Assembly: GCA_024698485.1 (NCBI GenBank) | Contig: JAILRC010000079.1 | Span: 1 to 64,000 of the forward strand | Direction of reading: 5' to 3' | DNA length: 64,000 bases | Origin: Lachnospiraceae bacterium | Lineage (GTDB): Bacteria; Bacillota; Clostridia; Lachnospirales; Lachnospiraceae | Shown here: one piece after another, positions 25,937 through 64,000 of the stretch | How positions within the stretch are numbered: the stretch's first letter is position 1 | Layout of the letters: each line of letters opens with the position of its first letter | The notes under the pieces: generated by a model | What the model was told of the DNA's origin: nothing | Databases searched by the model: none | Seen by the model: only the letters and a program-made list of their open reading frames with translations | Translations under genes and position numbers: made by a program

Positions 25937-26009
25937 CTATATTGAGAATGGGATACGGATCACTGAGTCCGGAACATCAAGACATATCCAGAATTTTGAG
26001 AGGGACAAT

Positions 26010-28163
26010 ATGACGACTTTTTATGTTTTGGGCGAAAAATTTCAGCTCAGAGAAATAGACGAGATCTACTGTATGCTTAGGAAAAAGAAGTACGACCTTG
26101 TCAAAAGAGAAATTACCGAGGCAAGATCTTCATTTTACAGCAAAGAAGAAAAATACCAAAATGAAGACTTTGAACAGAAGCAGAAAACACTGGAAGCAAT
26201 TGTAGATGAAGCAATGAAACGTACAAGAAAAGAATGTTTTAGCTGGGCATTCCTTTTAGATATTTACGATTTAGATGAAGATTCTTTCGATAAAAGAAAT
26301 AAGAATATAACTCATTCTGCAATAGATTCGATTTACGCCAGCAATATACAGATTGGCGAAATTGCCGATGAAACAAAGAAAAAAATGGCGCAGCGCGCTG
26401 AAAAATCTGCTCAAAAAGAAAAATATAACGTATTTGGCGGTTTCGGGATGCAAGGTGCCATCCGTGGAAGACTTCAATCGCAGCTTCTCAACTTTGGCTC
26501 GGATATGGGGGATCTTTTGATAAATACCATTTTTAATACGGGTGATTGTTTATCGAGCAGATCCAGAATAACAGATATAATAAAGAAACGTAAACTTCGA
26601 GAGGAAGGAATCCTAAACGCCCTAGAATCCGATATGGAGCATTATTGTGACGGAACCATTGACGTATTGATCTGTATTAAAGATCAAACAAATGACTTTA
26701 ATACACGAAAAGAAAATGCAATCCCAATCCTTCACAATATAGAAAAAGGAAACATCCCGAACGAAAAAATCGGAACCGTCTTTCGCGACTTGCTAAAAAA
26801 CTTTCCGATCTCCGAGGATTTATTTGCACAGATTTTACTATATTTTCCCGAAGATGGCGACAATATAGTAAAAAGCGTGGATACTCTTGGAATAGCATTA
26901 AAAGAGATCCTTTTTAGTTTTAAACACAAGAAAATAAACCCTGTTTTAAAAGAATTTACCCAACGGTATGAAAACCTCAGACAAAGAGATAGACTAACAA
27001 CAGAAGAAGTCAAAAATATTATTGCCAAAAAAGAAGAATGCAAAAAGGAGGTTATAAACCTTTTTGAAACTCTTCCCTCAGAATGGCAAACAGAAGATCT
27101 TAGGAATGCATTTATTGATTCTTTCGAGCGTTCAATCCGAGATGATATAGATTTTTATAATATTTTCAGAACCCGACACTTTATCAACACAGATAAAGGT
27201 ATCATATTCGGTGATACGGTGTTTAAGGTTGAAACCTGGGAAGAATTGCTTAACTACTGTGAAATATGCGAGCGGTATGATAAAAGTAAACTAAACCGGA
27301 TAATATCGGATTTTTATGCTGCTGTGGATAAATTCGGGGCTGCTGCGGAATCCTTCAAAAAACTGGACGATGCAGGATTGGTAAATGCCGATAATGTTAA
27401 AGAAATTGTAAGTCAATTCAATAAGTGCAAGCTGTTAGTCAACGACATAATCGAAGAAGTACATAATATTGATCCCAACGGCGTGATTTCCGATGGGGTA
27501 ACAAAAGAATATGAAAACTATATAAAAGAAGTTGATAAACAATTGCCCCCTGATGTTCTTTGTTCAGATATACATGTGAAAGAAGATCAAAGACAATTAT
27601 GGGAAAAACTTTACGATATTATCGCCGAAACTATGAAGGGAAGTAACTGCAGATCTCCCATGATAGGCAATCCTTTTATCACGGAATCGGAAAATCCAAA
27701 GATCGGAAATCTGAGAGTTGTTTGTAACATTCCAACCGGGGCAAATATTTTTTTTGCAAACGATGAAACTATACTTGGAAGTTGGAAAGCAGGCTGGGCT
27801 TTCTGTGATACAGGAATATACAGACACACAGCTTTTTTAACCAAGTCCCTGAGCTGGGAACAATTTATGAACTGTAAACTCACGCCAAATCCTTACAGTG
27901 CTTCCATATCTGTAGACGATGATACTATCGGTCTTTTGCATGACTGCGAAGCAGTTTGTAAAGCCCTGAAAAAATGGCAGGAAGTATTACATACAATTTC
28001 TCAGGTTAAAGGTACAGAGGCATTAAGGAACACTGCTTACGTTAAAGATCACAAAGCAAAGCAACCTAATAACTCTGAAGCAGAAGTAAAAAAATGCACT
28101 CATTGTGGTAAAGAGATCAAAAAAGAAGCGCATTTTTGTAATTTTTGCGGATCACAACAATAA
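26010..28163 (+). CDS. 717-aa protein of unknown function with C-terminal double-CxxC zinc ribbon
   Basis: Long ORF with SD; C-terminus KKCTHCGKEIKKEAHFCNFCGSQQ. Confidence 0.85.
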   Translation: MTTFYVLGEKFQLREIDEIYCMLRKKKYDLVKREITEARSSFYSKEEKYQNEDFEQKQKTLEAIVDEAMKRTRKECFSWAFLLDIYDLDEDSFDKRNKNITHSAIDSIYASNIQIGEIADETKKKMAQRAEKSAQKEKYNVFGGFGMQGAIRGRLQSQLLNFGSDMGDLLINTIFNTGDCLSSRSRITDIIKKRKLREEGILNALESDMEHYCDGTIDVLICIKDQTNDFNTRKENAIPILHNIEKGNIPNEKIGTVFRDLLKNFPISEDLFAQILLYFPEDGDNIVKSVDTLGIALKEILFSFKHKKINPVLKEFTQRYENLRQRDRLTTEEVKNIIAKKEECKKEVINLFETLPSEWQTEDLRNAFIDSFERSIRDDIDFYNIFRTRHFINTDKGIIFGDTVFKVETWEELLNYCEICERYDKSKLNRIISDFYAAVDKFGAAAESFKKLDDAGLVNADNVKEIVSQFNKCKLLVNDIIEEVHNIDPNGVISDGVTKEYENYIKEVDKQLPPDVLCSDIHVKEDQRQLWEKLYDIIAETMKGSNCRSPMIGNPFITESENPKIGNLRVVCNIPTGANIFFANDETILGSWKAGWAFCDTGIYRHTAFLTKSLSWEQFMNCKLTPNPYSASISVDDDTIGLLHDCEAVCKALKKWQEVLHTISQVKGTEALRNTAYVKDHKAKQPNNSEAEVKKCTHCGKEIKKEAHFCNFCGSQQ

Positions 28164-28183
28164 TTTTTACGAGGAAGAAAAAC

Positions 28184-30940
28184 ATGAAGTGTAAAAAATG
28201 TGGAAATGAATTTGAAGAGGGACTTTTTTGTCCGAATTGTGGTTCCAAAATTGAAGAAGAACAAGCAACGATAGTTAGCACCAATGCTCCCGTCCCCAAA
28301 AAGAAGAAGAAAAAACATATATTTAGAAATATTATACTGGCGATCATCGGTTCCTTTGTTCTTTTTATTATTATTGGTATTTTATACGAAGACGACGATA
28401 CTCAAAATTCCCCATCGCAAACTATTGCCTCCACAGATGAGGAAAAAAAGACCAATGTAGCCGCCGGTGGAAATGAAGTCATTTCCCAAAAAGCATATTC
28501 GGAACTAAAGAAAACAGACAAAAAATACTTTATATATTCTAAGTTAAACGAGACAGAAATTGCGATAACGGGATATGATGCAAACGGCCCGGTTGATGTG
28601 GTTATACCGCAAACAATTGACAAATATAATGTTGTGCTGGTTCGCGAAAATGCCTTTTCGAATAACAAAAAAATAAAAAGCATCGCTTTGCCAGGAACCA
28701 TAGACTACATTTCATCTAAATCTTTTGCAAATTGTACCTCACTGGAAAAGATTATTCTTGACGAAGGAGTAGATTCAATAGGAGCAATGGCTTTTTCGGG
28801 ATGTACTTCCTTAACGCAGATCATTTTCCCGAATTCTCTTTCATCTATTGACCCCGGAGCTTTTTATGGCTGTACCGCGCTGAAAAAAGTAGTATTTGGA
28901 AACAATATGAAGAGTATAGGCGAAGACGCATTTTGCGGCTGCAATGCCTTGCAAGAGATAGTATTTTCCGACAGCATTATCTCTATAGAGGCCAGAGCAT
29001 TTAAAGGTGCTACATCATTACTTAATGTCGAATTGCCCAAAAATCTTGAATCTTTAGGCGAAAATGTTTTCTTCGATACCGGAATAACAAAGCTCGCTTT
29101 TCCCGCCACAATAGAGGATATCGGTGATTGTAGCATTCAAGATATAACTATACCCGTTTCCAAAAATCCTCACATCGGAAATCTTGAAGGTTGTCAAAAA
29201 CTCACCTTAAATGGAACAACCGTTTATGCAATTGCCGCTCTTTCAGGTAATAGCACTATTAATACTGTCGTTCTCGAATCCGGTATCAGTACAATTGCCG
29301 AGGAGGCCTTTTATAATTTCACCGGCCTCAAACAAATAGATATTCCTGATAGTGTAACAGTTATCGAAAACTCAGCGTTTGAGAATTGTACTGCACTTGG
29401 TGATGTAACACTGCCCAAAGGTCTCTCAAAGATTGCCGAGAAGGCCTTTAAGAATTGCTCTTCCTTGACAAGCATATCAATTTCAGACAAACTTACCAAA
29501 TTAGGAGCTCATGCTTTTGAAGGATGTAAAAATCTTGAAACTGTATATTTGACAAATGGGGCTTTAAAAAAACTATCAGAATCCTCATTTAAAGATTGCT
29601 CTAATTTGACCTCAATAAATATTCCTGTCAATGTTGAATCCATCGGCAAAAATGCCTTTTCAGGTTGCTCAAAACTCGCAAAAGTAAATATAATGAACGG
29701 TGTAACAGAAATCGGCGAACGAGCATTTGACTCTTGTAAATCATTACAAAGTATTACATTGGGTGACTCGATCAAGAACCTAGGAGATTATACCTTTTTT
29801 GACTGTCAAGCACTCTCCGAAATTAAAGGCATGGACCATGTTGAGTATATTGGGGTGCAATGTTTCTTCAATACATGTTCTCTTAATGTAATAAGTTTTG
29901 GAGAAGGGCTTAAAGTAATAAAACAAAAAGCCTTTTTGAATTCAGGGGTCAAAAGTATGATAATCCCTCGTGGTATTCAGGAAATAGGTGATGAAGCCAT
30001 TTCATGTGCCACAGATATAACTATTTGTTTAAACATCGATATAAATAATAACAATTTTGACCGATGTGAAAAATTGACCCTTCTCGAAGGCACAACCGAA
30101 ATACCGGCAGATTTCATGTCAGATTGCTCCAGCTTACGCAGTATAACAATCCCGGAAGGTGTAATAACTATTTATGCAAGTGCCTTTTGTGATTGCAAAT
30201 ACCTTACAGATATACAATTGCCGGAATCGCTGATAGAGATCAAGCAAGATGCTTTTGCCAATACCGGAATCAAAGAACTCGTAATCCCTAAGAATGTCAA
30301 AGAAATAGATCCCGGCGCATTCGAAAACGTAAAAAAACTTATAGTTTCTGCCGGTTGTGAATGTTCGGCCCTTCCGCTCTCGGAATGTACCTCGCTCATT
30401 CTTGAGGGTCCATCAGAATTACCGGATTTCAGTTACGCACCAAAACTTCAAGATCTGGTAATAGGTGAAGGTTTAACAGAAATAAGAGAAAAAGCTTTTT
30501 ATTATCTCGATTTAAAAACCGTTACATTGCCTGATTCTTTGACCAAAATTGGTGCGCAGGCCTTTTGTAACTGTAAACATTTGAAGGAGATCAGACTTCC
30601 GGAAGGCTTGGAATATATCGGTGAATATGCATTCGAAAAATGTTATGCACTTAGTGAAATAACTATTCCTGAAGGCATAACTGAAATCTCGAAATTCGCT
30701 TTTATATATTGTACAGGGCTTAAGTCGGTTGTTCTGCCGGATACCCTTAAAAGAATAGAAATGGGCGCCTTTAACAATTGTTCGTCACTTGCAGAAATAA
30801 ACATTCCGAACAGTCTTGAATATGTAGGCTGGGCATCTTTTAAAGGGACAAAACTGGATGATAGCACCCGCCATCAGTTATATGAACTTGCAGAAGAATA
30901 TCAAAGTCCGTTTGACAGTGTAGTTTTTGTCACACATTAA
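28184..30940 (+). CDS. Zinc ribbon - TM - BspA-type leucine-rich repeat protein
   Basis: MKCKKCGNEFEEGLFCPNCGSK; single TM IILAIIGSFVLFIIIGIL; roughly two dozen LRR_5-type units (AFxxCxxLxxIxLPxxLxxI). Confidence 0.92.
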   Translation: MKCKKCGNEFEEGLFCPNCGSKIEEEQATIVSTNAPVPKKKKKKHIFRNIILAIIGSFVLFIIIGILYEDDDTQNSPSQTIASTDEEKKTNVAAGGNEVISQKAYSELKKTDKKYFIYSKLNETEIAITGYDANGPVDVVIPQTIDKYNVVLVRENAFSNNKKIKSIALPGTIDYISSKSFANCTSLEKIILDEGVDSIGAMAFSGCTSLTQIIFPNSLSSIDPGAFYGCTALKKVVFGNNMKSIGEDAFCGCNALQEIVFSDSIISIEARAFKGATSLLNVELPKNLESLGENVFFDTGITKLAFPATIEDIGDCSIQDITIPVSKNPHIGNLEGCQKLTLNGTTVYAIAALSGNSTINTVVLESGISTIAEEAFYNFTGLKQIDIPDSVTVIENSAFENCTALGDVTLPKGLSKIAEKAFKNCSSLTSISISDKLTKLGAHAFEGCKNLETVYLTNGALKKLSESSFKDCSNLTSINIPVNVESIGKNAFSGCSKLAKVNIMNGVTEIGERAFDSCKSLQSITLGDSIKNLGDYTFFDCQALSEIKGMDHVEYIGVQCFFNTCSLNVISFGEGLKVIKQKAFLNSGVKSMIIPRGIQEIGDEAISCATDITICLNIDINNNNFDRCEKLTLLEGTTEIPADFMSDCSSLRSITIPEGVITIYASAFCDCKYLTDIQLPESLIEIKQDAFANTGIKELVIPKNVKEIDPGAFENVKKLIVSAGCECSALPLSECTSLILEGPSELPDFSYAPKLQDLVIGEGLTEIREKAFYYLDLKTVTLPDSLTKIGAQAFCNCKHLKEIRLPEGLEYIGEYAFEKCYALSEITIPEGITEISKFAFIYCTGLKSVVLPDTLKRIEMGAFNNCSSLAEINIPNSLEYVGWASFKGTKLDDSTRHQLYELAEEYQSPFDSVVFVTH

Positions 30941-30954
30941 TCTCCCATAAAAAT

Positions 30955-31003
30955 CATCCTCTTGGATCTATGTTGGTAAAATATCGATCCAAGAGGATAT
31001 TTT
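30955..31003 (+). terminator. Rho-independent terminator after the LRR gene
   Basis: ATCCTCTTGGATC...GATCCAAGAGGAT followed by ATTTTAT; coordinates approximate. Confidence 0.7.
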
Positions 31004-31048
31004 ATAGTTCTTGAAGTTTCTGTTTGCAAGCTTATAACCATATGCTTA

Positions 31049-31927
31049 TCATACATTTTTCACGGAAGCATTATCTCCTCCACCCGGAAGTTGTTTCAAA
31101 CCTTCCAAGCTTACAAGTGACAACGTCTCCATCTGTTTCACCGCGAGCTCTCTCAATAAGACGATCCGTTCAGACATTATTTTTCCCTGACTTATAAGTA
31201 TCGCATTATAGCTTTCCATGTTTGCAAGCACCAACAATTGGTTAAGATCGGCATCGTCCCGAATATTCCCTTTTTTCTTGGGATTTATATCTCTCCATTG
31301 CTTTGCTGTCATTCCAAAAAGAACCACATTAAGCATATCCGCTTCGCTGGCGTACTTATATGAAATCTGCTCCGGAGTGAGTTCCAAAGGAATCAATTGC
31401 TTCTTTATAGCATCGGTATGAATGCGATAATTCAGCTTAGATATTTCACGGTTAAGATTCCAGTTAAGAGACAGACGGCTGTTTTCATCATACTTAAGCC
31501 GTCTATAGTCCTTCATGATATACAATTGAAATTCCGGAGAAATCCAAGAGGCAAAAGCTAACGCAATATCGCTATGGGCAAAAGTACCTCCGCCATACCT
31601 TCCGGCTTTGGACACAATGCCTTTGGCGTTCATCTGTTCAATCCATTTCAAAGGTGTCATAACAAAACGATTGAGACCGGCTTCATTTTTAACCGTATCG
31701 AATTGCACACGGTTAAAATCGGGATTATGGAGTGTCTCCCAAATTGCCAAAAATTCAATAGTATTTCTATTACGCATCCAGTTTTGTATAACAAAACGCG
31801 GGTCATCCACATTCCTGTATTTTGCTATATCTGTAAGAGAAATAAATTCGTTTTCAAAATCCGTTGTATAAATGCCTATATCAATACCTTTAGCATGAAT
31901 AGTCTCTTTTTTAACCTCTTTCATCAT
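31049..31927 (-). CDS. KilA-N domain-containing protein
   Basis: FISLTDIAKYRN...FDTVKNEAGLNRFVMTPLKWIEQMNAKGIVSKAGRYGGGTFAHSDIALAFASWISPEFQLYIMKDYRRLK. Confidence 0.88.
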   Translation of the reverse strand: MMKEVKKETIHAKGIDIGIYTTDFENEFISLTDIAKYRNVDDPRFVIQNWMRNRNTIEFLAIWETLHNPDFNRVQFDTVKNEAGLNRFVMTPLKWIEQMNAKGIVSKAGRYGGGTFAHSDIALAFASWISPEFQLYIMKDYRRLKYDENSRLSLNWNLNREISKLNYRIHTDAIKKQLIPLELTPEQISYKYASEADMLNVVLFGMTAKQWRDINPKKKGNIRDDADLNQLLVLANMESYNAILISQGKIMSERIVLLRELAVKQMETLSLVSLEGLKQLPGGGDNASVKNV

Positions 31928-31928
31928 A

Positions 31929-32081
31929 TCACTTTCCCTCCCCAACAAGATAATCGTATAGTTTCCCCACACTGCTGAAATCTATATCGTTACCTTCTTC
32001 ATCTGTGATCATGCCTGGTTCATACTTTCTCCAATAATCGAGTTCGTAAATGAAATAATCTTTCCGCGTGTCATAACGCAC
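31929..32081 (-). CDS. Unannotated 50-aa ORF directly upstream of KilA-N
   Basis: GTG start; VRYDTRKDYFIYELDYWRKYEPGMITDEEGNDIDFSSVGKLYDYLVGEGK*; stop 1 nt from the KilA-N ATG; below ORF-track cutoff. Confidence 0.55.
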   Translation of the reverse strand: MRYDTRKDYFIYELDYWRKYEPGMITDEEGNDIDFSSVGKLYDYLVGEGK

Positions 32082-32145
32082 TTCCTATGTTTTTCCATAG
32101 TACTATGCGTATGATGATTTGTCATTGGACGGATAGTCCAAAACG

Positions 32146-32487
32146 TCACGCCGCAACATTTATGAAATAAGCTTTCATTCTATTACATAATGCCTGACTG
32201 TCCGTTTTAAAGGTTGTTATTTCTTCATATAAATTGCAGGAATGCTCTTTAACCAGCAATTCCTCCATGTGAACACGAAACAGTTCACTAAGTCTGAGAA
32301 GGTTATCTACTGAAGGCAACATGGAACCCTTGTACCATCTGTAAACAGGCTGTGGGCACGAAAGGCACAAGTATTTCTGAATATCTTTTACACTATATCC
32401 GTTTTGTTTTGCAAATTTTTGAAGTCTAAGGCCTGTTCTTCTCATATCAATTGATGTTGTAATTTCATTCATTTTCGTATCCCCCAC
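32146..32487 (-). CDS. Xre-type HTH regulator
   Basis: LRLQKFAKQNGYSVKDIQKYLCLSCPQPVYRWYKGSMLPSVDNLLRLSELFRV. Confidence 0.85.
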   Translation of the reverse strand: MGDTKMNEITTSIDMRRTGLRLQKFAKQNGYSVKDIQKYLCLSCPQPVYRWYKGSMLPSVDNLLRLSELFRVHMEELLVKEHSCNLYEEITTFKTDSQALCNRMKAYFINVAA

Positions 32488-32489
32488 CT

Positions 32490-32620
32490 ATAGGCCGATT
32501 GCCATCAACGGTATAATCATGCCCGGTTCTCCGTCTTCATTTTTCACTGCCTCGGCATAAACTTAAGCGCCTGTTCGAATATCTCTTTAATATTATCAAA
32601 AACCGGCAAATTCATAGCCT
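32490..32620 (-). pseudogene. Possible frameshifted remnant of a small gene
   Basis: Minus strand reads NLPVFDNIKEIFEQALKF, then after a frame change AEAVKNEDGEPGMIIPLMAIGL*. Confidence 0.35.
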
Positions 32621-33546
32621 CATTTCAATTCCACCACCACTATTTCAGGTCTGTTATTAATGCGGATAGGAATGATACTGTTTCCTATTCCGCGACTGAC
32701 GATCATTTTGGTCCCATTCCGGGTATATATGCCGGCATCATATTTAGGGAATAATCCTTGATCAGGTGCAACTATTCCGCCTACGAACGGGAGTCTGATT
32801 TGCCCGCCATGCGCATGTCCGCTCAATACAAGATCTACACCTGCTTCAACATAGACCTCAAACAGCTCGGGACGATGAGACAGCAGAATACTATAATCTT
32901 CAGATACGAGCATTTGTTTCAACATTGTTTGGATACTGCGGTACACGTCAAGATTACTCCTCTCTGTAAAATCAGGATCATCCAACCCTGCGAGCTGTAT
33001 CTTTTGACCGTCTCTTTCTATTGAAATACACCGGTCATGCAGTATATGAACATTTTCAGCCAGTAACTTTTCCTCAAGTTCAGGGTATTGCGTACCTATC
33101 CATCCCTCATGATTTCCCGTAACGAAACAGCAAGGGGCGATACTCTGTAATTCGCGTACTGTAGCAACAGCCACCTGAACATCCGTTCTGTTTGAATCCA
33201 CCAGGTCACCGGTAATTGCTATAAGATCCGGCTGTTCTTTTTTTACGATCTGTATGATCCTGCTGTTGTCGTTACCGAATTGTGCATTATGTAAGTCCGA
33301 TATTACTACGATCTTATATCCTTCAAACGCCGTCGGCAGGCGTTCACTCGTAATACTATACCGAGTAACACCAACTGTTACATTCCCCCATACAGTCCAT
33401 AGCACTGACAACATCGCCAACATCAGTACGATCAAATTCTTATACTTGTTGTTGTTTTTCTTCTTTTCATTTTCAGTCTCTACTCTAACCATCTTGCTTT
33501 CAGTCACTTCACCCTCAAACAGATGTACTATTTTTCCTCTTATCAC
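32620..33546 (-). CDS. YkuE/YaeI-like metallophosphoesterase
   Basis: VVISDLHNAQFG, ITGDLVDS, VTGNHEG, LVLSGHAHGGQ; true start may be nearer 33492. Confidence 0.92.
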   Translation of the reverse strand: MIRGKIVHLFEGEVTESKMVRVETENEKKKNNNKYKNLIVLMLAMLSVLWTVWGNVTVGVTRYSITSERLPTAFEGYKIVVISDLHNAQFGNDNSRIIQIVKKEQPDLIAITGDLVDSNRTDVQVAVATVRELQSIAPCCFVTGNHEGWIGTQYPELEEKLLAENVHILHDRCISIERDGQKIQLAGLDDPDFTERSNLDVYRSIQTMLKQMLVSEDYSILLSHRPELFEVYVEAGVDLVLSGHAHGGQIRLPFVGGIVAPDQGLFPKYDAGIYTRNGTKMIVSRGIGNSIIPIRINNRPEIVVVELK

Positions 33547-33972
33547 TTTAATCTCTTCGGGTTTCTTTGCACTAAAATGGTGTTTCGCACTTTCAAGTCA
33601 AAAAATTTGACCGTATCGCCTTGATCTCGGAATTCTTTGACCCAAAATGCGTTTTCACATGTTTAAGTCAAAGTTTTTTATCCTTCTTCCCCTGATCGTC
33701 CACGAATCCTTTGACTCAAAATGCCATTTTCACATGTTTAAGTCAAAGTTTTTCATCCTTCTTACCCTTATCGCCCATGAATTCTTTGCCCTAAATGATG
33801 TTTCTGCCGTTTCAAGTCAAAAATTATCGTCCATTCCGCCTTGATTACGCATGAATTCTTTGGTCCAAATGCTGAATTAACACGTTTAGGTCAAAAGATC
33901 ATGTTCAAAATGCTTCTCGCGTCCGTAATTTCTTTGGTCTGAAACCTTGCAATTGAATATTTAGGTCAAAAA
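33524..33972. repeat. Degenerate tandem array, about six units of about 70-75 bp with internal inverted repeats
   Basis: AAGTCA/AGGTCA landmarks at 33595, 33665, 33740, 33814, 33888 and 33963; best units carry CTTTGACTCAAAATG...CACATGTTTAAGTCAAAG. Confidence 0.8.
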
Positions 33973-33992
33973 AAAGTGTTCAGTGGACCACA

Positions 33993-34046
33993 AACCCCGT
34001 CCTCGGGGGGGGATTAAAATGAGCCCTTAACCCCGTCCCCGGGGTC
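33993..34046. repeat. REP-like GC-rich hairpins and right copy of the 22-bp direct repeat
   Basis: ACCCCGTCCTCGGGG, TTAAAATGAGCCCTTAACCCCG (34014-34035), ACCCCGTCCCCGGGGT. Confidence 0.7.
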
Positions 34047-55025: not shown

Positions 55026-56927
55026 ATGATATCAAGTGTAAGTACCGCCATACCAAGTTTCATCATTCTGATCCTGTTTCTGGCCTGTTTCTTTTCCGCT
55101 CCAAGGATCCCCATACTGACCAACCGTCTTTACATCCTTTTGCTTTTTGCCACTCTTGTGACTGCAGCCATGAATATTCTGGCTTCCTATGCAAACCGGA
55201 ATTTCTCTGTGGATCGTTTCATCGTGACCTATATTTTTAATACTCTCTTTTTTGTCGCCCTCCTTGTCAGGTCCTACCTCTTTTTTGCCTACTCAGCTTC
55301 ACTGGTGAATCTGAACCACTACAACACCAGAATGTTTGCCTGGGTGTTCCGTCTGCCCATGATCATCACCGCCGTTGTGGCTGTGACATCCTTTAAGACA
55401 AAGGCCTTGTTCAGGATCACCGATGCAGGTTTTGAGAAGGGTCCCTTCATGTACCTTCTGTATATGTGCCTGTATTTCTATCTCATCGTCTCAGTCTTTG
55501 CCATCATCATACACAAGAAAAACTTTTCCGGAGCTCGGGATTTTTGGGGTGCCATCGCTTTTAACGTTTTTCTCGCTTCAGGGTCGCTCTACGTCTCTGT
55601 CTTTCCCACGTCACTCATGATCGACACCTTCTGCCTCATGTCAGTGATCGTAATATTCCTGTGCTTTGAAAATCCTGATTTCAGGACCGAAGCCAGAACA
55701 GGTCTTTTCAACGGCAATGCTCTTCACGACTATCTTCAGGAAATGCACTACAAAAAAAACATCCTCCTTTTGGCTTTTGTCATCAAAAACTATCAGGACA
55801 TCCGGGAGATCTACGGTATTCCCAGTATGGACACAGGCATACGCCTCATAGGAAATTACCTGAAGACTTCCTATCCCGAGATCACATCCTTCTATTTTAA
55901 AGAGGGTCGTTTCATCCTTTCCGCCGATGCCGACACCGATGCAGACGAACTGTGTAAAAGCATTGCGGAGCGATTCGAAAATTCCTGGGATGCAAAAGGA
56001 GTGGAACTTTATCTGAACATATGTTTCGCGCGTATGGATCCCGGAACGGACCTTTCTTCGGCAGATCTTACACTGAACGCCCTGATCTCCGCCATGAACC
56101 GTGCTGTAAAAAGCGACGACGGTTTTGTTGCGGTGGTGGGTGACAAGGACATCACAGACTATATCAAGGAGATCTCCGTAAAGAAGATCCTGGAGCTCAC
56201 GGTGGAAGAAAACCTCATCGAGGTCTTTCTCCAGCCCATAGTTGAAACAGCTCATCTCCGCATAGTGGGAGCGGAGGCTCTTGCCCGCATACGCGACCGC
56301 GAGGGCAGATTCATCTCCCCCGAGGATTTCATTCCCATTGCAGAAAAAAACGGGTGTATCACCACCCTTGGAGAGCAGATCCTGGACAAGACCTGCAAAT
56401 TTATAAAAGAAAATTCTCTGGATTCCATCGGCCTTTCCTGGATAAATGTGAACCTCTCTCCTATCCAGTTCTTTGTAAACGACATAGCCGCCAGCTATGA
56501 AGAGATCATCCGCCGTAACGGCCTGGACTACAACATCATCCGCCTGGAGATCACCGAGGAATCCATGGTGAGCCATTCTCTCCTTCTTAAACAGATGGAA
56601 TCCATGACGGAAAAAGGGTTCCAGTTTGTACTGGACGACTACGGAAAAGGCTACTCCAACCTTTCCCGCCTCCACAAATGCCCCTTCGTCAACATCAAGA
56701 TCGACATGGAGCTTGTGTGGGCTTACTGCAACAATCCCAACCTTCTTCTACCCAGCATGATCTCAAGTTTCAAGAGCATGGGATTCACCGTCACAGCAGA
56801 AGGCATAGAGAACCGCGAAATGGCCGACGCCATGATCGCCCTGGGCTGCGACTACCTCCAGGGCTACTACTTCTCGAAGCCGCTGTCCATGCCGGATTTT
56901 ACGAAGGCGTTTGCGATATTTGCGTAA
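55026..56927 (+). CDS. Membrane EAL-domain c-di-GMP phosphodiesterase with degenerate GGDEF
   Basis: N-terminal TMs; EALARI, NVNLSP, LEITEES, LDDYGKGYSNL, KIDMEL, AEGIEN, LQGYYFSKPL; GGDEF position reads KEGRF. Confidence 0.9.
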   Translation: MISSVSTAIPSFIILILFLACFFSAPRIPILTNRLYILLLFATLVTAAMNILASYANRNFSVDRFIVTYIFNTLFFVALLVRSYLFFAYSASLVNLNHYNTRMFAWVFRLPMIITAVVAVTSFKTKALFRITDAGFEKGPFMYLLYMCLYFYLIVSVFAIIIHKKNFSGARDFWGAIAFNVFLASGSLYVSVFPTSLMIDTFCLMSVIVIFLCFENPDFRTEARTGLFNGNALHDYLQEMHYKKNILLLAFVIKNYQDIREIYGIPSMDTGIRLIGNYLKTSYPEITSFYFKEGRFILSADADTDADELCKSIAERFENSWDAKGVELYLNICFARMDPGTDLSSADLTLNALISAMNRAVKSDDGFVAVVGDKDITDYIKEISVKKILELTVEENLIEVFLQPIVETAHLRIVGAEALARIRDREGRFISPEDFIPIAEKNGCITTLGEQILDKTCKFIKENSLDSIGLSWINVNLSPIQFFVNDIAASYEEIIRRNGLDYNIIRLEITEESMVSHSLLLKQMESMTEKGFQFVLDDYGKGYSNLSRLHKCPFVNIKIDMELVWAYCNNPNLLLPSMISSFKSMGFTVTAEGIENREMADAMIALGCDYLQGYYFSKPLSMPDFTKAFAIFA

Positions 56928-56939
56928 ATTTGGAAAACC

Positions 56940-56963
56940 GAAATGGCCCTCGAGGGCCATTTC
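56940..56963. terminator. Perfect 24-bp palindrome between convergent genes
   Basis: GAAATGGCCCTCGAGGGCCATTTC. Confidence 0.5.
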
Positions 56964-56967
56964 GTAC

Positions 56968-58164
56968 TTACAACACCAAACCTCTTTCAATCACAAATTC
57001 TGTCTTTATTTTCTCTACCTTGATTTTTTTTAGGTTATATTCAGCCTTTCTAAGTTCAACTTCTTTCTCAAAGACTAAAAGTTTTGTTGAGAAACCCAGA
57101 CCATATTTCTTTTGTTCGATTTGTAGCCTATTTTTTAGAAATTCCACTTCTTTTTCCGCTGAACGCATCTCCCTCTCCAGTGTTTCATACTGTGCCAGAA
57201 GGTTCGACACATATGTTTCGATCATTTCTCTGCGTGTTTCCAAACTATACGTCATGTACAATATTTCCGCCTGCTCACGGTCTGCCTCTTTTTTGTATTC
57301 ATGCAGTACTCTCATATATCTCTCAAACTTATCCATGTGAGACTTATATTTTTCCAAATTATATTGCATCTGAACGTATGTAATGTCATTCTGCAAAAAA
57401 AATGTAATCGAATCATTTTTAGAGAACGAATGAAATTCATCATTTGCACAGCAAGCATTTAGACATTCAGCGTCCTTCATTTCAACGTTAGGGTATCTTG
57501 TAAAAAACAGATCATTGAATGTGTCAATATTCTTCTTTATCATGTCATTTTGTTTTTCACAATCTAATAAAACAACATTCATCTTATCAAGCAAATCGGG
57601 TGTAACCATATCAAGACTGGCTTTGATTTCCAAACATCTTTTCTCCAGCTGTGCTTTTGAAAGTTCAATATCGATATATTGCTTTTTTGATATTTCCAGA
57701 CTGTGCTCAAGCAAGCTGCTCATAGTATCATATAAAAATCGGTTTCTTGCATTAATATACACTTCATCTTCAAAATCCACAAAAAACTTTTTAACATCCG
57801 CATCCAATTTCAACTTTCCAAGATTTGCTTTCACTTCAGATGATGTATACGCCCCCCTATTCATCCGGTCATCATAATCATTATATGTTTTTTTTGCAAC
57901 CAAATAGTCCTCTTTCTTTTCACTGCCCAGAGTCCTTGCAACCGCTTCTTCTGTGCTGTTAATCCATATAGTCAAAAGGTAATTCTCAAACTCTTCAGGC
58001 AGTAATGTATTGTAATCTTCATAATTCGAACGGTCTTTCGAGGAAGATGTATCCTCAACTGCATTTGCAATTTCAGAAGGAGCACAAAGTATTCCCGAAA
58101 GCAAAACAAACATAAGTGTCATGAAAACCTTGGCTCTCATTATAACTATTTTTTTGTTTTTCAT
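56968..58164 (-). CDS. Secreted/anchored coiled-coil protein, TolC-like
   Basis: Signal sequence; long coiled-coils; C-terminal QKKYGLGFSTKLLVFEKEVELRKAEYNLKKIKVEKIKTEFVIERG. Confidence 0.6.
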   Translation of the reverse strand: MKNKKIVIMRAKVFMTLMFVLLSGILCAPSEIANAVEDTSSSKDRSNYEDYNTLLPEEFENYLLTIWINSTEEAVARTLGSEKKEDYLVAKKTYNDYDDRMNRGAYTSSEVKANLGKLKLDADVKKFFVDFEDEVYINARNRFLYDTMSSLLEHSLEISKKQYIDIELSKAQLEKRCLEIKASLDMVTPDLLDKMNVVLLDCEKQNDMIKKNIDTFNDLFFTRYPNVEMKDAECLNACCANDEFHSFSKNDSITFFLQNDITYVQMQYNLEKYKSHMDKFERYMRVLHEYKKEADREQAEILYMTYSLETRREMIETYVSNLLAQYETLEREMRSAEKEVEFLKNRLQIEQKKYGLGFSTKLLVFEKEVELRKAEYNLKKIKVEKIKTEFVIERGLVL

Positions 58165-58184
58165 TTTATCCCCATTAAAGTTAA

Positions 58185-59741
58185 TCATTTTTCTTTTACA
58201 AGCAATGAAAGTTTCTCAAGAACCCATCGTATCACGGTTTTCTCCCCTGTTATGATCTTCACATCGCATGCCATTCCGGATTCCAACGGAAGTCTGTTGC
58301 CCTCTTTGTCAATTGTTGTGTCAATATTTATATAAGCATCTGCCCGATAAAAGGCTCGGCCACTTGTCTGGTCAACTGTGATATCTTTTGCAACATCTGT
58401 GAGTTTACCCATGAAGTATCCGTATTCTGCGGAAGGAAATGATGCTATATTAAGCTTTACATCCATTCCCGCTTCAACATTTCCTCGATCGGCATTATTT
58501 AAATAAACAATTGCCTTATATTCTTCTTCATTCTCCGGAAGAACGACAAGGACGACCGTTCCACCTGCAAGAAAGTCTCCCTCGACAGGAGTTTTCACTT
58601 CATGTATGACGCCGCTTGTCGGTGCTTTAACAGTGCACTCTTTAATCGTCTCTTCGGTTTCGATAAGGCTATTCTTCAAATCCGTAAGAGTTTTCTCTTT
58701 TGATTCAAGAAGCTGTAAAGCAGATGATAATTCATCCTTTACAAGTTTTTCAACAGCGGAATACCTATACTGCGATGTTTCTGAAACTCCCAATTGTTCC
58801 TTTTTTATTGTCAGGTCTGCAAGAGATTTTTCGAGATTCTTTTTTTCTTCAATGAGTGATTTTTTTCTTGTTTCAATATCAAGTGTAAAGACTGTTTTTT
58901 GATTATCATAAGCAAGTAACGCATTATCATATGCCTTTTTGGATTCTTCGACATCATATGTCGAAACTGCCTCACCCTCCAAGAGAATGCTCATTTCATA
59001 TCTTTTCTTTGCACTTTGAACTGAAGAGAGTAATTCAGTTCTCTTAGAAAGATAGTTATCATATTGAAGAGTAAAAAAAGCCTCCGGGTCCGAAATATTT
59101 TCAAAACCTTCTTCTGCCACTTTTGAATGTAACCAATCATAGCCTACTATATCTTCTTCATTTTTCAAAAGCTGTTTCTTAACATGTTCAGTTTCTGTTG
59201 CTATACCTTTTTCTGTTGTCTCATATTCATTAATCAATGAATATAGTTTTATGCAAAAGACATCATACTGTGTTTTATATCTCCGCACAACACCTGATTC
59301 TCCGGGGAGTTCAAAAGGGTTTTCACCGTCTGAAACAGCTTTTATATATGCATTAAGTGCTGTTATCTCCTCTTCGGTGATAACTATTTGTTCGTTGTAG
59401 TAATCTTTTCTTGTAAGATAATCACTGTGATCAATTATATAAAGAGTATCTCCTTTTTTGACAAAGTCGGAAGGTTTGTACAAAACCTTCTCAACAATTC
59501 CCTGCCTTATATTGGTAACAGTACTGACAGAATCTGAAGGCTTGATCATTCCATCTGCATTCACGTAAACATCTATTTTCCCGATACACATCCATATAAT
59601 TGCAACGATCAACAGTCCAAGCACGGTAAAGACAAATGTCACCCCGACTTTGGATACTCTGCTCTCGTACATTTCCCTGCTGTCTGTCATTTCTGAAATA
59701 TCTGTTATTATCGGTTTCATTATTCGCTCACCTGCTTCCAT
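58185..59741 (-). CDS. HlyD-family secretion adaptor
   Basis: N-terminal TM; VNADGMIKPSDSVSTVTNIRQGIVEKVLYKPSDFVKKGDTL; APTSGVIHEV; C-terminal beta-barrel. Confidence 0.9.
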   Translation of the reverse strand: MEAGERIMKPIITDISEMTDSREMYESRVSKVGVTFVFTVLGLLIVAIIWMCIGKIDVYVNADGMIKPSDSVSTVTNIRQGIVEKVLYKPSDFVKKGDTLYIIDHSDYLTRKDYYNEQIVITEEEITALNAYIKAVSDGENPFELPGESGVVRRYKTQYDVFCIKLYSLINEYETTEKGIATETEHVKKQLLKNEEDIVGYDWLHSKVAEEGFENISDPEAFFTLQYDNYLSKRTELLSSVQSAKKRYEMSILLEGEAVSTYDVEESKKAYDNALLAYDNQKTVFTLDIETRKKSLIEEKKNLEKSLADLTIKKEQLGVSETSQYRYSAVEKLVKDELSSALQLLESKEKTLTDLKNSLIETEETIKECTVKAPTSGVIHEVKTPVEGDFLAGGTVVLVVLPENEEEYKAIVYLNNADRGNVEAGMDVKLNIASFPSAEYGYFMGKLTDVAKDITVDQTSGRAFYRADAYINIDTTIDKEGNRLPLESGMACDVKIITGEKTVIRWVLEKLSLLVKEK

Positions 59742-61903
59742 AGATTGGCATAATGCCCGTTAATTTTCAGAAGTTCTTCATGCGTACCCGATTCGATCAC
59801 TTTTCCATGGTCCATGAAATAGATCCTGTCACAATGCCTTATTGTGCTGAGCCTGTGCGCAATAATTATCTGGGTAACATTCGAGAGGTTGTTCTTTATC
59901 GTCTCCTCGATTGCTTTTTCCGTAACAGAGTCAAGGTTTGAAGTTGCCTCATCCATTATGAGTATATCCGGCTTTTTCAATATTGCTCTTGCTATGGCAA
60001 GCCTCTGTCTCTGTCCCCCGGAAATGTTCGCTCCGTTTTCTTCAAGTCTTGTTTCATATCTTAACGGTAATTCATTAATAAATGATGCAGCCTGAGCTTT
60101 CTCTGCCGCTTCAATGATCTGTTCGTTTGTAACATCAGGATTTCCGAGTTTAAGATTTTCCATAATGCTTCCCGAAAAAAGGAATGTCTCCTGAGGTATA
60201 TAACTTATTCTGTTGCGAAGAGTCTCAAACGAAATATCTTTTATATTTTTGCCTGCAATACAAATTTCACCCTCTTCGGGATTATAAAAATTTAAAAGAA
60301 GTTTTGCGATGGTTGTTTTTCCCGATCCGCTTTCTCCTACAAGAGCTATTTTTTCTCCCTTTTTTATATCGATCGAGAAATGTTCAAATACGGGTTTTCT
60401 TGTACCATATCTGAACGTTATGTCCTTAACCGAAATATCGCCTTGAAGATCATCGGATGTGATCTTTCCATTTTCCCTTTCCCTTTCAATCTCAAGATCC
60501 AGTATCTCACCGAGCCTGTCAGAAGCCACGACGGCTGTTTGCATTTGAGGTTGAAGGTTTATCAGGTTTTTAACGGGTCCCAAAAAATACCCGAGTAGAG
60601 CATTAAATGTAATGAGTTCACCCATTGTCATCCTGCCCTCGATCACATTAACTCCGCCAACCCAAAGGATAACAATCCCTCCCACGAGTTCAGCAAATGC
60701 AACAAGTGAACCCTGAAGATTTGAAATGCTCCCGAGCTTAAATATGCTTTTTAAAAGCGCAATAAACTTACTCTCTGTTTTTAAATGAACGCTTCTTTCC
60801 GCATTGAATGCTTTGACGGTTTGGATCCCGTTAAGACTTTCTACCATATATGACGTGAGCTGTGCATTACTTTCCATCTGTTTTTCATTCAGCTTCCGAT
60901 ATGTTTTGTTAAAGAAGAACACAATTACAAAATATATAACAAGCACAACAACACATACGCCAAACATCTTGGAACTCTGCATATACAGAATGATCCCACC
61001 GGCTACTGCCATGATCGAATCGATCATTATGGTCAGAACCGCTCCGGAAATAGCGTCTCTAACCTTTGATGCATCCTGGAACCTTGATATGATCTCACCG
61101 ACTTTTCTGCTGCCAAAAAAGTTCATGGGCAATTCAAGCACATGATTATAGTAACCAAGCAATAGTTTTATATCGAGTTTTTGTGAAAGATGCAAAAGAA
61201 ACTGTGAGCGAACCGCAGAGAACAAAACTTTAAAAAGATTCAAAAGGATCACACCTATTGAAACTATGTGAAGAGTTTTCCTCAGTCCGTTAGGAAGAAT
61301 GTCATCCATCAGCACCTTAAAGTAGAATGACCCGAGTATTCCTAGAACAGTCAGCAAAAGAGATGCAATAAAGACTTCGATCAGAAGCGCTTTCTGAGGT
61401 TTCAAAAGGTAGAGAAATCTCGAAAAAAGCCCTCCCTTTGTTTCATCGCCCTTTTTAAATGCTTCATTCGGAACCAGAAATATCAGTATCCCGCTCCACA
61501 TGTACTTTGGAGGCTTATTCTCTTCGTGTTTCTCCCCGAAGAATTCTTCGGGAGTCAGATTTACTATTCCTTTCGCCGGATCTGCGATCACAACCTTTTT
61601 CTTTGTAATCCTATGTATAACAACGTAATGCATAAGATTACCGTCTGCTACCACATGCGCAATACAAGGCAATGGAAACTCACTAAAAAAAGCGTCTTTG
61701 TTGCCTTTGAAGCCTTTTGCAGAAAATCCAAGGTTTTCTGCCGCCTGAATTACCCCGTACACATTTGTCCCCTGTTTATCCGTTCCTGCAATTTCACGGA
61801 TCTTGGTTATTGAAATCTTAAGACCGTATTGCCGCGATACTGTTGCCAAACAGGCTGCGCCACAGTCGGTTATGTCATGTTGTTTGATACAGTAAAAACG
61901 CAT
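59720..61903 (-). CDS. Peptidase-containing (C39) bacteriocin ABC transporter
   Basis: QHDITDCGAACLATVSRQYGL; MHYVVIHRI..ADP; GESGSGKTT; ISGGQRQR; ILIMDEATSNLD. Confidence 0.96.
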   Translation of the reverse strand: MRFYCIKQHDITDCGAACLATVSRQYGLKISITKIREIAGTDKQGTNVYGVIQAAENLGFSAKGFKGNKDAFFSEFPLPCIAHVVADGNLMHYVVIHRITKKKVVIADPAKGIVNLTPEEFFGEKHEENKPPKYMWSGILIFLVPNEAFKKGDETKGGLFSRFLYLLKPQKALLIEVFIASLLLTVLGILGSFYFKVLMDDILPNGLRKTLHIVSIGVILLNLFKVLFSAVRSQFLLHLSQKLDIKLLLGYYNHVLELPMNFFGSRKVGEIISRFQDASKVRDAISGAVLTIMIDSIMAVAGGIILYMQSSKMFGVCVVVLVIYFVIVFFFNKTYRKLNEKQMESNAQLTSYMVESLNGIQTVKAFNAERSVHLKTESKFIALLKSIFKLGSISNLQGSLVAFAELVGGIVILWVGGVNVIEGRMTMGELITFNALLGYFLGPVKNLINLQPQMQTAVVASDRLGEILDLEIERERENGKITSDDLQGDISVKDITFRYGTRKPVFEHFSIDIKKGEKIALVGESGSGKTTIAKLLLNFYNPEEGEICIAGKNIKDISFETLRNRISYIPQETFLFSGSIMENLKLGNPDVTNEQIIEAAEKAQAASFINELPLRYETRLEENGANISGGQRQRLAIARAILKKPDILIMDEATSNLDSVTEKAIEETIKNNLSNVTQIIIAHRLSTIRHCDRIYFMDHGKVIESGTHEELLKINGHYANLWKQVSE

Positions 61904-61920
61904 TATCTTTCCCCCAAAGC

Positions 61921-62649
61921 TCAATTAAGAATAATTTGTTTTCTCAAACTCTTTGGAATAAGTCCCATATATTTCAATACTTTTTCCTTCTCAAAATCTG
62001 CAAGCCCGTCATCTTCTTTCTTTTGGGCAAGAAGATACAATAAATAGTGCATGTATACAGCCGAAATCGCGGTATCAAATTCCATTTTAGAAAAAGATAT
62101 AATTTCCTCATATGGAATTAAATCAGATGAGTATAATGCCAAAGAAACCAGCATTTGATTCACTTCTTCTGTTCTTGTCTCCTCTGAACTAACTATTCTA
62201 TAATAGCGATATCCATCCGTATAAGTAAACCCTGTTCTGATAGGAACTGGAATCGAACATATAATCCCGATTCCAAGGCTCATTGTGCCAATAATAATGA
62301 TGTTTATATTATTCATTATCACGCCAAAAGTTAATACTATGCATCCAAACAAGATAGAGAACAAAGGTCCCCCTAATAACAAGAAAGCAAAATCTTTATC
62401 AAAGGTATCCGTTATTTTTCGTGGGATAAGCAAACTTATCCCACCCCAATAACGGACATCAAGAGATAATTTGATTTTATACTTCTTGATATCACGATAA
62501 ACAATAAATGGGCCTACTTCAATATATTCGAATACCCACTTTTTGATTTTGCCAAAAACGACATGCCCCAGTTCATGAATCGTAATACAACAAAAAAAAC
62601 CAATGCCCCCGGCAAGAAAAGCTTGAAAGAATACCTTTAAAATACTCAT
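61921..62649 (-). CDS. M50-type membrane metalloprotease-like protein
   Basis: CCITIHELGHVVFGK; multiple TM; FLLLGGPLFSILFG; overlaps the transporter ORF. Confidence 0.75.
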   Translation of the reverse strand: MSILKVFFQAFLAGGIGFFCCITIHELGHVVFGKIKKWVFEYIEVGPFIVYRDIKKYKIKLSLDVRYWGGISLLIPRKITDTFDKDFAFLLLGGPLFSILFGCIVLTFGVIMNNINIIIIGTMSLGIGIICSIPVPIRTGFTYTDGYRYYRIVSSEETRTEEVNQMLVSLALYSSDLIPYEEIISFSKMEFDTAISAVYMHYLLYLLAQKKEDDGLADFEKEKVLKYMGLIPKSLRKQIILN

Positions 62650-62730
62650 CTATTCCTCCCATACTATCATGTTGTTCCAAACAGTATTATCATTTCTTGA
62701 ATACCAACAATTTTTGTTTTTTATCATTTC

Positions 62731-63018
62731 TTATTCACTCTTTATAGAATCAATAACTTCTTGGAAAGATTTTCTTTCAACCAACCCGTTATTTATCCAA
62801 TAACGTTTCTCCGCCGTATCCCGTTCCTGATACAAATATGTATTTTTCATTGTTTTAAAGTAATTCTCTTGTAAAGCGGAACTACTATATTTAATCTTAC
62901 CATCCAACAATCCACAAATTGTAGGAATATGCTCTTGTTTAATCCTTTCTTGAAGTGAATTGTCTCCAATTTGCCTTGGATAATCTGTCATTGCCATAAT
63001 CGAAAAGGGAATGTCCAA
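62731..63018 (-). pseudogene. Possible 5'-truncated/frameshifted ORF in the bacteriocin locus
   Basis: No convincing start; upstream in another frame reads ENLLSIIDSYDWTFPF, continuing as FSIMAMTDYPRQIG. Confidence 0.35.
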
Positions 63019-63052
63019 TCATAAGAATCTATTATCGACAGAAGATTTTCTT

Positions 63053-63091
63053 AAAAAGTGTATCTTGCCACCTAAAGTGACAAGATACACT
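63053..63091 (-). terminator. Rho-independent terminator/attenuator separating structural and export genes
   Basis: AGTGTATCTTGtCAC...GTGgCAAGATACACT followed by TTTTT on the minus strand. Confidence 0.8.
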
Positions 63092-63111
63092 AAATAAACA
63101 AGATAACAAAC

Positions 63112-63612
63112 CTACAGATTTAAAACGTAGTGAAAACAGTACATATACCAGTATATTAATGCCGCACCGACTGCTATTTCACAAATAAAAACAACTCTCC
63201 ACCTACCTATATGTTTTGCTCTATTTTTTTCGATAAACAGGACGTTTATCAGTGAAATAGCTGCTGCGAAAGGAATTAATGCAATTAGAAATAAAACTGT
63301 GCTTGATAACTTTACTGATAAGATGCCGAGCAAAAATGCACATATTGCACTTACACCGAAAGCAATCGGATTTGTGTTTTCCTTTTTTAAAAAAGCCATA
63401 AGAGCAGTATCTCTCCCTTCATTTTGATCAATACTCGAGCGCTCTATTCTACACATATGAAAATATATCGCCCCGGAAACCATTGTGGCATATATTATTC
63501 CTTTAGGCACTGACCATTCTCCCATGCCCTTTACCAGAAAAAAAACAACTGTGAAAAATAGTGCATACGCTAAATAAACCAACCATTCTATAATCTGTTT
63601 ATTCTTGTTCAT
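63112..63612 (-). CDS. Multi-TM protein, candidate bacteriocin immunity protein
   Basis: Start MNKNKQ with SD AGAGGA; several TM; immediately follows the precursor gene. Confidence 0.55.
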   Translation of the reverse strand: MNKNKQIIEWLVYLAYALFFTVVFFLVKGMGEWSVPKGIIYATMVSGAIYFHMCRIERSSIDQNEGRDTALMAFLKKENTNPIAFGVSAICAFLLGILSVKLSSTVLFLIALIPFAAAISLINVLFIEKNRAKHIGRWRVVFICEIAVGAALIYWYMYCFHYVLNL

Positions 63613-63625
63613 TTTGTAAATCCTC

Positions 63626-63850
63626 TTATAAAGTAGGTGCCGTAAATCCAATACAAGCGCCCGTTACCAGCCCGCCTAAAACACAGTCTTTTGTGTTTTC
63701 AGCTGACCAGCTCTCACTGGTAAATGCCCCTACCAGAGCTACGACTAGCCCTACAGCTGCTCCATCAAGAGCTCCAAGGATAGCTCCACCAATGCCTCCG
63801 CCATTAAGAACCTGCTTTTCTTCCTCGTTGAGCATTTCAAACCTGTTCAT
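63626..63850 (-). CDS. Double-Gly leader bacteriocin-like precursor
   Basis: MNRFEMLNEEEKQVLNGG/GIGGAILGALDGAAVGLVVALVGAF...KDCVLGGLVTGACIGF; SD GGAGA. Confidence 0.88.
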   Translation of the reverse strand: MNRFEMLNEEEKQVLNGGGIGGAILGALDGAAVGLVVALVGAFTSESWSAENTKDCVLGGLVTGACIGFTAPTL

Positions 63851-63863
63851 TTTCACATTCTCC

Positions 63864-64000
63864 TTAATCTAAGATGATTTTTGCTATAACAAACCCTGCA
63901 ATGCCACCTACAACAGCGCCAACTATCGGGTGTCCACAAATCGCACCGACCGTTCCTCCGACTTCTGCACCTTTTTTCATTGCATATCCTGTAGCAACAG
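63864..64000 (-). CDS. Second bacteriocin-like peptide, C-terminal part (start outside window)
   Basis: Minus strand: VATGYAMKKGAEVGGTVGAICGHPIVGAVVGGIAGFVIAKIILD*. Confidence 0.8.
   Translation of the reverse strand, partial: VATGYAMKKGAEVGGTVGAICGHPIVGAVVGGIAGFVIAKIILD

Follow-up and report, generated by a model that had tools for sequence, protein, structure and literature searches.

Does a bacteriocin operon in an apparently Gram-positive Lachnospiraceae bacterium encode a third, TolC-like export component beside its transporter and adaptor, and what might such a protein do in a cell with a single membrane? To address this, we analyzed a 64,000-nucleotide stretch of the genome, referred to here as the window, and followed the genes at its right-hand end into other Clostridia.

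Gene order and transcription units

The minus strand carries, in the direction of transcription, two double-glycine (GG) peptide genes, a multi-TM protein gene, a hairpin, an ORF of about 90 aa, and genes for an M50-like peptidase, a peptidase-containing ABC transporter (PCAT), an HlyD-family adaptor and a 406-aa TolC-like protein. The features, listed from the highest coordinate, are:

63864..64000 (part within the window), minus strand: double-glycine peptide, leader ...FAELDSEEMFMIDGG
63626..63856, minus strand: double-glycine peptide, MNRFEMLNEEEKQVLNGG followed by GIGGA..., class IIb-like (leader motif; PF10439 below cut-off)
63112..63651, minus strand: multi-TM protein, four hydrophobic segments
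63053..63091, minus strand: hairpin with U-rich tail, terminator or attenuator (RNA fold -23.0 kcal/mol, z -7.8)
61921..62649, minus strand: M50-like membrane peptidase with HELGH motif (PF02163)
59720..61924, minus strand: peptidase-containing ABC transporter, C39-TMD-NBD (TIGR01193, PCAT1)
58185..59741, minus strand: HlyD-family adaptor with long coiled coil (PF13437, TIGR01843, TIGR01000; hydropathy; sequence)
56968..58188, minus strand: TolC/OEP-like secreted coiled-coil protein (PF02321; RND-TolC-like profile with shuffle control)
56939..56964, minus strand: operon-end terminator-like hairpin CGAAATGGCCCTCGAGGGCCATTTCG (RNA fold -21.7 kcal/mol, z -5.2)

Every gene of the minus-strand series described in an earlier note was found in its place, and the tight packing that it had ascribed to the export genes is visible as overlaps: the likely HlyD start (ATG 59720) shares TAATG with the ABC stop codon, and a possible start of the last gene lies in ATGA. 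The note had also counted two Gly-rich peptides. Both are present with GG leaders, although the window end truncates one of them, which is complete only in the 64771-base contig (63864-64127, start at 64127).

Read against the published double-glycine leader rule (PMC8277102), the two leaders, whose last residues are ...LNEEEKQVLNGG and ...LDSEEMFMIDGG, have Leu in position -12, Glu in position -8 and a hydrophobic residue in position -4. The peptide at 63626..63856 scored 23.4 bits against PF10439, under the cut-off of 27.1. Both peptide genes sit upstream of the M50, PCAT and HlyD genes. The PCAT matched TIGR01193 (706 bits), PF03412 and the PCAT1 structure 4ry2 (798 bits), has the active-site block QHDITDCGAAC and likely starts at ATG 61903. 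A C39-ABC transporter with two GG leaders nearby is the combination that marks a double-glycine bacteriocin exporter. The adaptor, with one N-terminal TM segment, matched PF13437 at 45.9 bits as well as TIGR01843 and TIGR01000. ABC transporter, adaptor and OEP component are encoded together, a feature of type I secretion systems.

The M50-like peptidase passed the PF02163 cut-off (28.9 bits against 27.2). A DUF3267 zincin peptidase gene follows the TolC-like gene in genome G054 (L063 10523-11137), paralleling this peptidase, and two M50-like relatives with 35-38% identity to it lie close to contig ends in G092 (L168, L169), with no PCAT within the fetched stretch. Family searches with the multi-TM protein gave no significant match; from its position, it is possibly an immunity protein.

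The hairpin at 63091-63053 divides the peptide and multi-TM unit from the export unit, while the operon-end hairpin, with 11 pairs, starts 3 bases past the last stop codon. Neither was picked up by an automatic terminator scan, and both were found by reading and folding the sequence. Between the upper hairpin and the M50 gene, the ORF at 62731-63018 (~86-95 aa) is a candidate gene that gave no significant match in a family search. GC content is 36-42% at 56000-64000 and 26000-34000 of the window, compared to ~48% in the remainder, and these low-GC stretches are possibly acquired regions.

Sequence and predicted fold of the TolC-like protein

Translation of the TolC-like protein may begin at 58188 (406 aa, with ATGA overlapping the HlyD stop) or, as taken in the earlier note, at 58164 (398 aa, after GGGGAT). 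A signal peptide spans approximately residues 1-44, and an adaptor-tip motif, KKYGLGFSTKLLVFEKEVEL, lies near residue 365. We saw no wall anchor on the protein. Residues 299-390 matched PF02321 (OEP) at 28.4 bits, above the curated threshold of 22. This was the single OEP match in the genome, so the protein is probably a dedicated one.

Two profiles were used for more distant comparisons: A3, for which 18 TolC-like proteins within the same bacterial family were used, most encoded beside RND pumps, and A2, the PCAT-linked TolC-like family with eight members. A3 scored 43.6 bits against the window protein, compared to a maximum of 22.2 for heptad-preserving shuffles (n=2000). The reversed protein scored -1.1, and the coiled coil of the window's own HlyD scored -0.9. 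Plain coiled-coil similarity was ruled out by these shuffles. The matched region centers on the hairpin whose tip faces the adaptor in TolC. A PDB sequence search with the TolC-like protein or the PCAT-linked alignment gave no direct TolC match. A2 matched A3 in a profile-profile comparison (prob 96, E 3e-9) and A3 matched VceC (1yc9), OprM and TolC in the PDB; the sequence path to TolC structures runs via the RND-linked relatives. The resemblance to TolC that the earlier note had read in the C-terminal half thus holds up, and judged by profile matches, that half alone is recognizable as TolC-like. The second repeat is clear, while the first half was not recognized by the profile. In relatives from family f10 and genome G054, the tip motif is present in both halves; a first repeat in the window protein is weakly supported.

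The spacing of the tips bears on the beta-barrel. Tip glycines are 218 residues apart in E. coli TolC (169 and 387), compared to about 150-170 in related proteins (~150 in RND-linked relatives and 169 in f10 PCAT-linked relatives), and residues 234-362 of the window protein, where the second beta-hairpin of TolC falls, contain no Gly or Pro. Single-sequence AlphaFold models of the precursor and the mature protein were all helix, with pLDDT of 50-53 and only the C-terminal hairpin confident. Foldseek searches with these low-confidence models returned generic coiled coils and MacA hairpins but no TolC. The earlier note had named a predicted structure without TolC-like hairpins as counting against its proposal; the C-terminal hairpin is predicted, in models too weak to establish the TolC fold. 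Spacing, the Gly/Pro gap and the models suggest that the beta-barrel has gone in at least the second repeat; since it seems absent there, the protein would not be a classical TolC channel.

These features would also fit an OEP-derived accessory that sits on the HlyD hairpins, acting as a clamp, as a spacer or in self-protection, without forming a continuous channel. One hairpin alone is clearly TolC-like and the second repeat, at least, seems to have lost its part of the barrel, whereas the paired tip motifs of the f10 and G054 relatives are as expected for a two-repeat protein.

Recurrence of the gene beside HlyD and PCAT

HlyD searches covered 299 genomes of the family and 288 of the class, with matches inspected together with their flanks. 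An A2-type gene directly follows HlyD in eight genomes: the window's own, G054, G356, G429, G493, G533, G395 and G563. Searching 388 Clostridia (class) genomes with the A2 profile added G652 and G661 and gave nine genomes with 10 loci, the gene standing immediately after HlyD in all of them. These nine include A2's own members, so the count reflects linkage rather than independent discovery. One further Lachnospiraceae-type genome carries the gene. When the single protein was used as query, no relative turned up in genome contigs, in the 299 genomes of the family or in plasmids, which indicates that the TolC-like protein diverges fast.

Co-occurrence with HlyD and PCAT spans three Clostridia families. 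Absence of such linkage elsewhere had been named beforehand as the outcome that would count against the proposal, and the survey contradicts it. On the PCAT tree, carriers were clustered, with four changes and 13 of 500 shuffles equally low; one carrier group falls in f10/f29. The PCATs of the window and of G054 lie among those of family f1.

Approximately 14 of the 22 nearest PCAT-HlyD operons lack a TolC-like gene, as does a Paraclostridium plasmid, so the mechanism does not depend on the gene. Loci of both kinds have GG peptides, and in some loci lacking the gene these are similar. Because it is missing from most related operons, the TolC-like protein would tune export rather than be required for it, for example by aiding release through a thick wall or by self-protection.

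Other TolC-like genes were seen in different settings. TolC-like proteins are common in the family of the inspected loci L075-L101 (mostly f1 genomes), and an RND pump lies beside tandem TolC-like genes in 19 of these 27 loci, usually with an adaptor gene. The single TolC-like gene of the window operon differs from this RND-linked tandem pair, which is common in the same bacterial family. HlyB-like ABC and HlyD operons were found in G147 (L064), G188 (L065) and G323 (L136), with RTX-repeat proteins adjoining in G147 and G323; a short OEP-like third gene (261-275 aa) is present in G147 and G188, and none in G323.

The optional nature of the gene, and the retention of just a 261-275 aa version in some RTX-type relatives, fit an accessory without a channel. 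The position of all class-search family members directly after HlyD argues against that explanation, which we consider somewhat unlikely but the strongest of the alternatives.

Cell envelope and a possible export path

The genome assembly is 79% complete, and absences of envelope markers are thus suggestive only. With that completeness, neither Omp85 nor LpxC was matched, giving no sign of the outer membrane that a type I system would cross; Spo0A was likewise not found. Diderm Firmicutes do exist (Negativicutes and Halanaerobiales; PMC4793230, PMC5007114), and in a cryptic diderm these genes would encode a conventional type I secretion system that crosses an outer membrane. However, in addition to the missing markers, which are no proof, the TolC-like protein seems to have no room for the second beta-hairpin before the tip and the window PCAT clusters with those of its own bacterial family. 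We regard this scenario as highly improbable.

Placement in an S-layer, proposed for TolC-like proteins of other monoderm Firmicutes (PMC8809574), is a further alternative. SLH and CWB2 domains were unmatched in the 79% complete genome, which does not place the organism among the S-layer species of that study, although S-layer types outside SLH/CWB2 exist. This location seems improbable to us. The earlier proposal of a third export part in a Gram-positive stands in part, in terms of profile resemblance, co-occurrence with HlyD and PCAT and lack of outer-membrane marker matches; the conduit is a putative one and, with the barrel apparently absent in at least the second repeat, would not be a classical TolC channel.

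The gene order, C-terminal resemblance, signal peptide, recurrent linkage and lack of outer-membrane marker matches are observed. Our preferred reading, to which we lean without great confidence, is that this single-membrane bacterium exports double-glycine bacteriocins through a type I-like apparatus of three parts, ending in a barrel-less helical duct into the wall. By its close homology to PCAT1, the PCAT would remove the GG leaders and pump the peptides, and HlyD, also by homology, would carry the path onward beyond the membrane. The TolC-like protein would leave the cell by the Sec route, may dock with its conserved Gly-containing tip on the tips of the HlyD hairpins, and could prolong the duct into or through the peptidoglycan as a helical tube lacking an outer-membrane beta-barrel.

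TolC-like proteins in tripartite efflux operons of monoderm Firmicutes have been published, including a C. difficile protein with an omission in the beta-barrel domain (PMC8809574). Like those proteins, the one described here is a secreted OEP-family member encoded with an adaptor and transporter in the apparent absence of an outer membrane; the window operon differs in its bacteriocin PCAT pump and GG-peptide cargo, and in that an S-layer domain was not found. With PCAT1 of Clostridium thermocellum and class II bacteriocin exporters (TIGR01193/TIGR01000), it shares the C39-ABC transporter, HlyD-like accessory and GG leaders; what it has in addition is a secreted part of the OEP type and a gene for an M50 peptidase. 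Gram-negative microcin V and RTX type I systems have the same set of ABC transporter, adaptor and OEP-family component, whereas the window operon comes without outer-membrane markers, has its OEP gene within the operon and apparently lacks at least part of the beta-barrel. In the searchable literature, which leaves most subscription journals outside, we found no report of a dedicated TolC-like protein in PCAT bacteriocin operons, and the recurrent pairing of such a gene with double-glycine bacteriocin exporters looks new.

Other Clostridia have this set of genes too, which suggests that some single-membrane bacteria may extend an exporter into the wall. More tentatively, and with our doubts somewhat outweighing our confidence, some monoderm Clostridia could secrete bacteriocins with a genuine tripartite machine, a wall-spanning counterpart of type I secretion whose helical tube across the peptidoglycan would be made by a TolC relative that lacks the barrel. 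If the duct exists, some Gram-positives would have a guided export step through their thick wall, and the TolC fold would need neither an outer membrane nor a complete beta-barrel in order to function. The operon bears on the role of TolC-like proteins in monoderms, for which it offers a compact case with a defined cargo.
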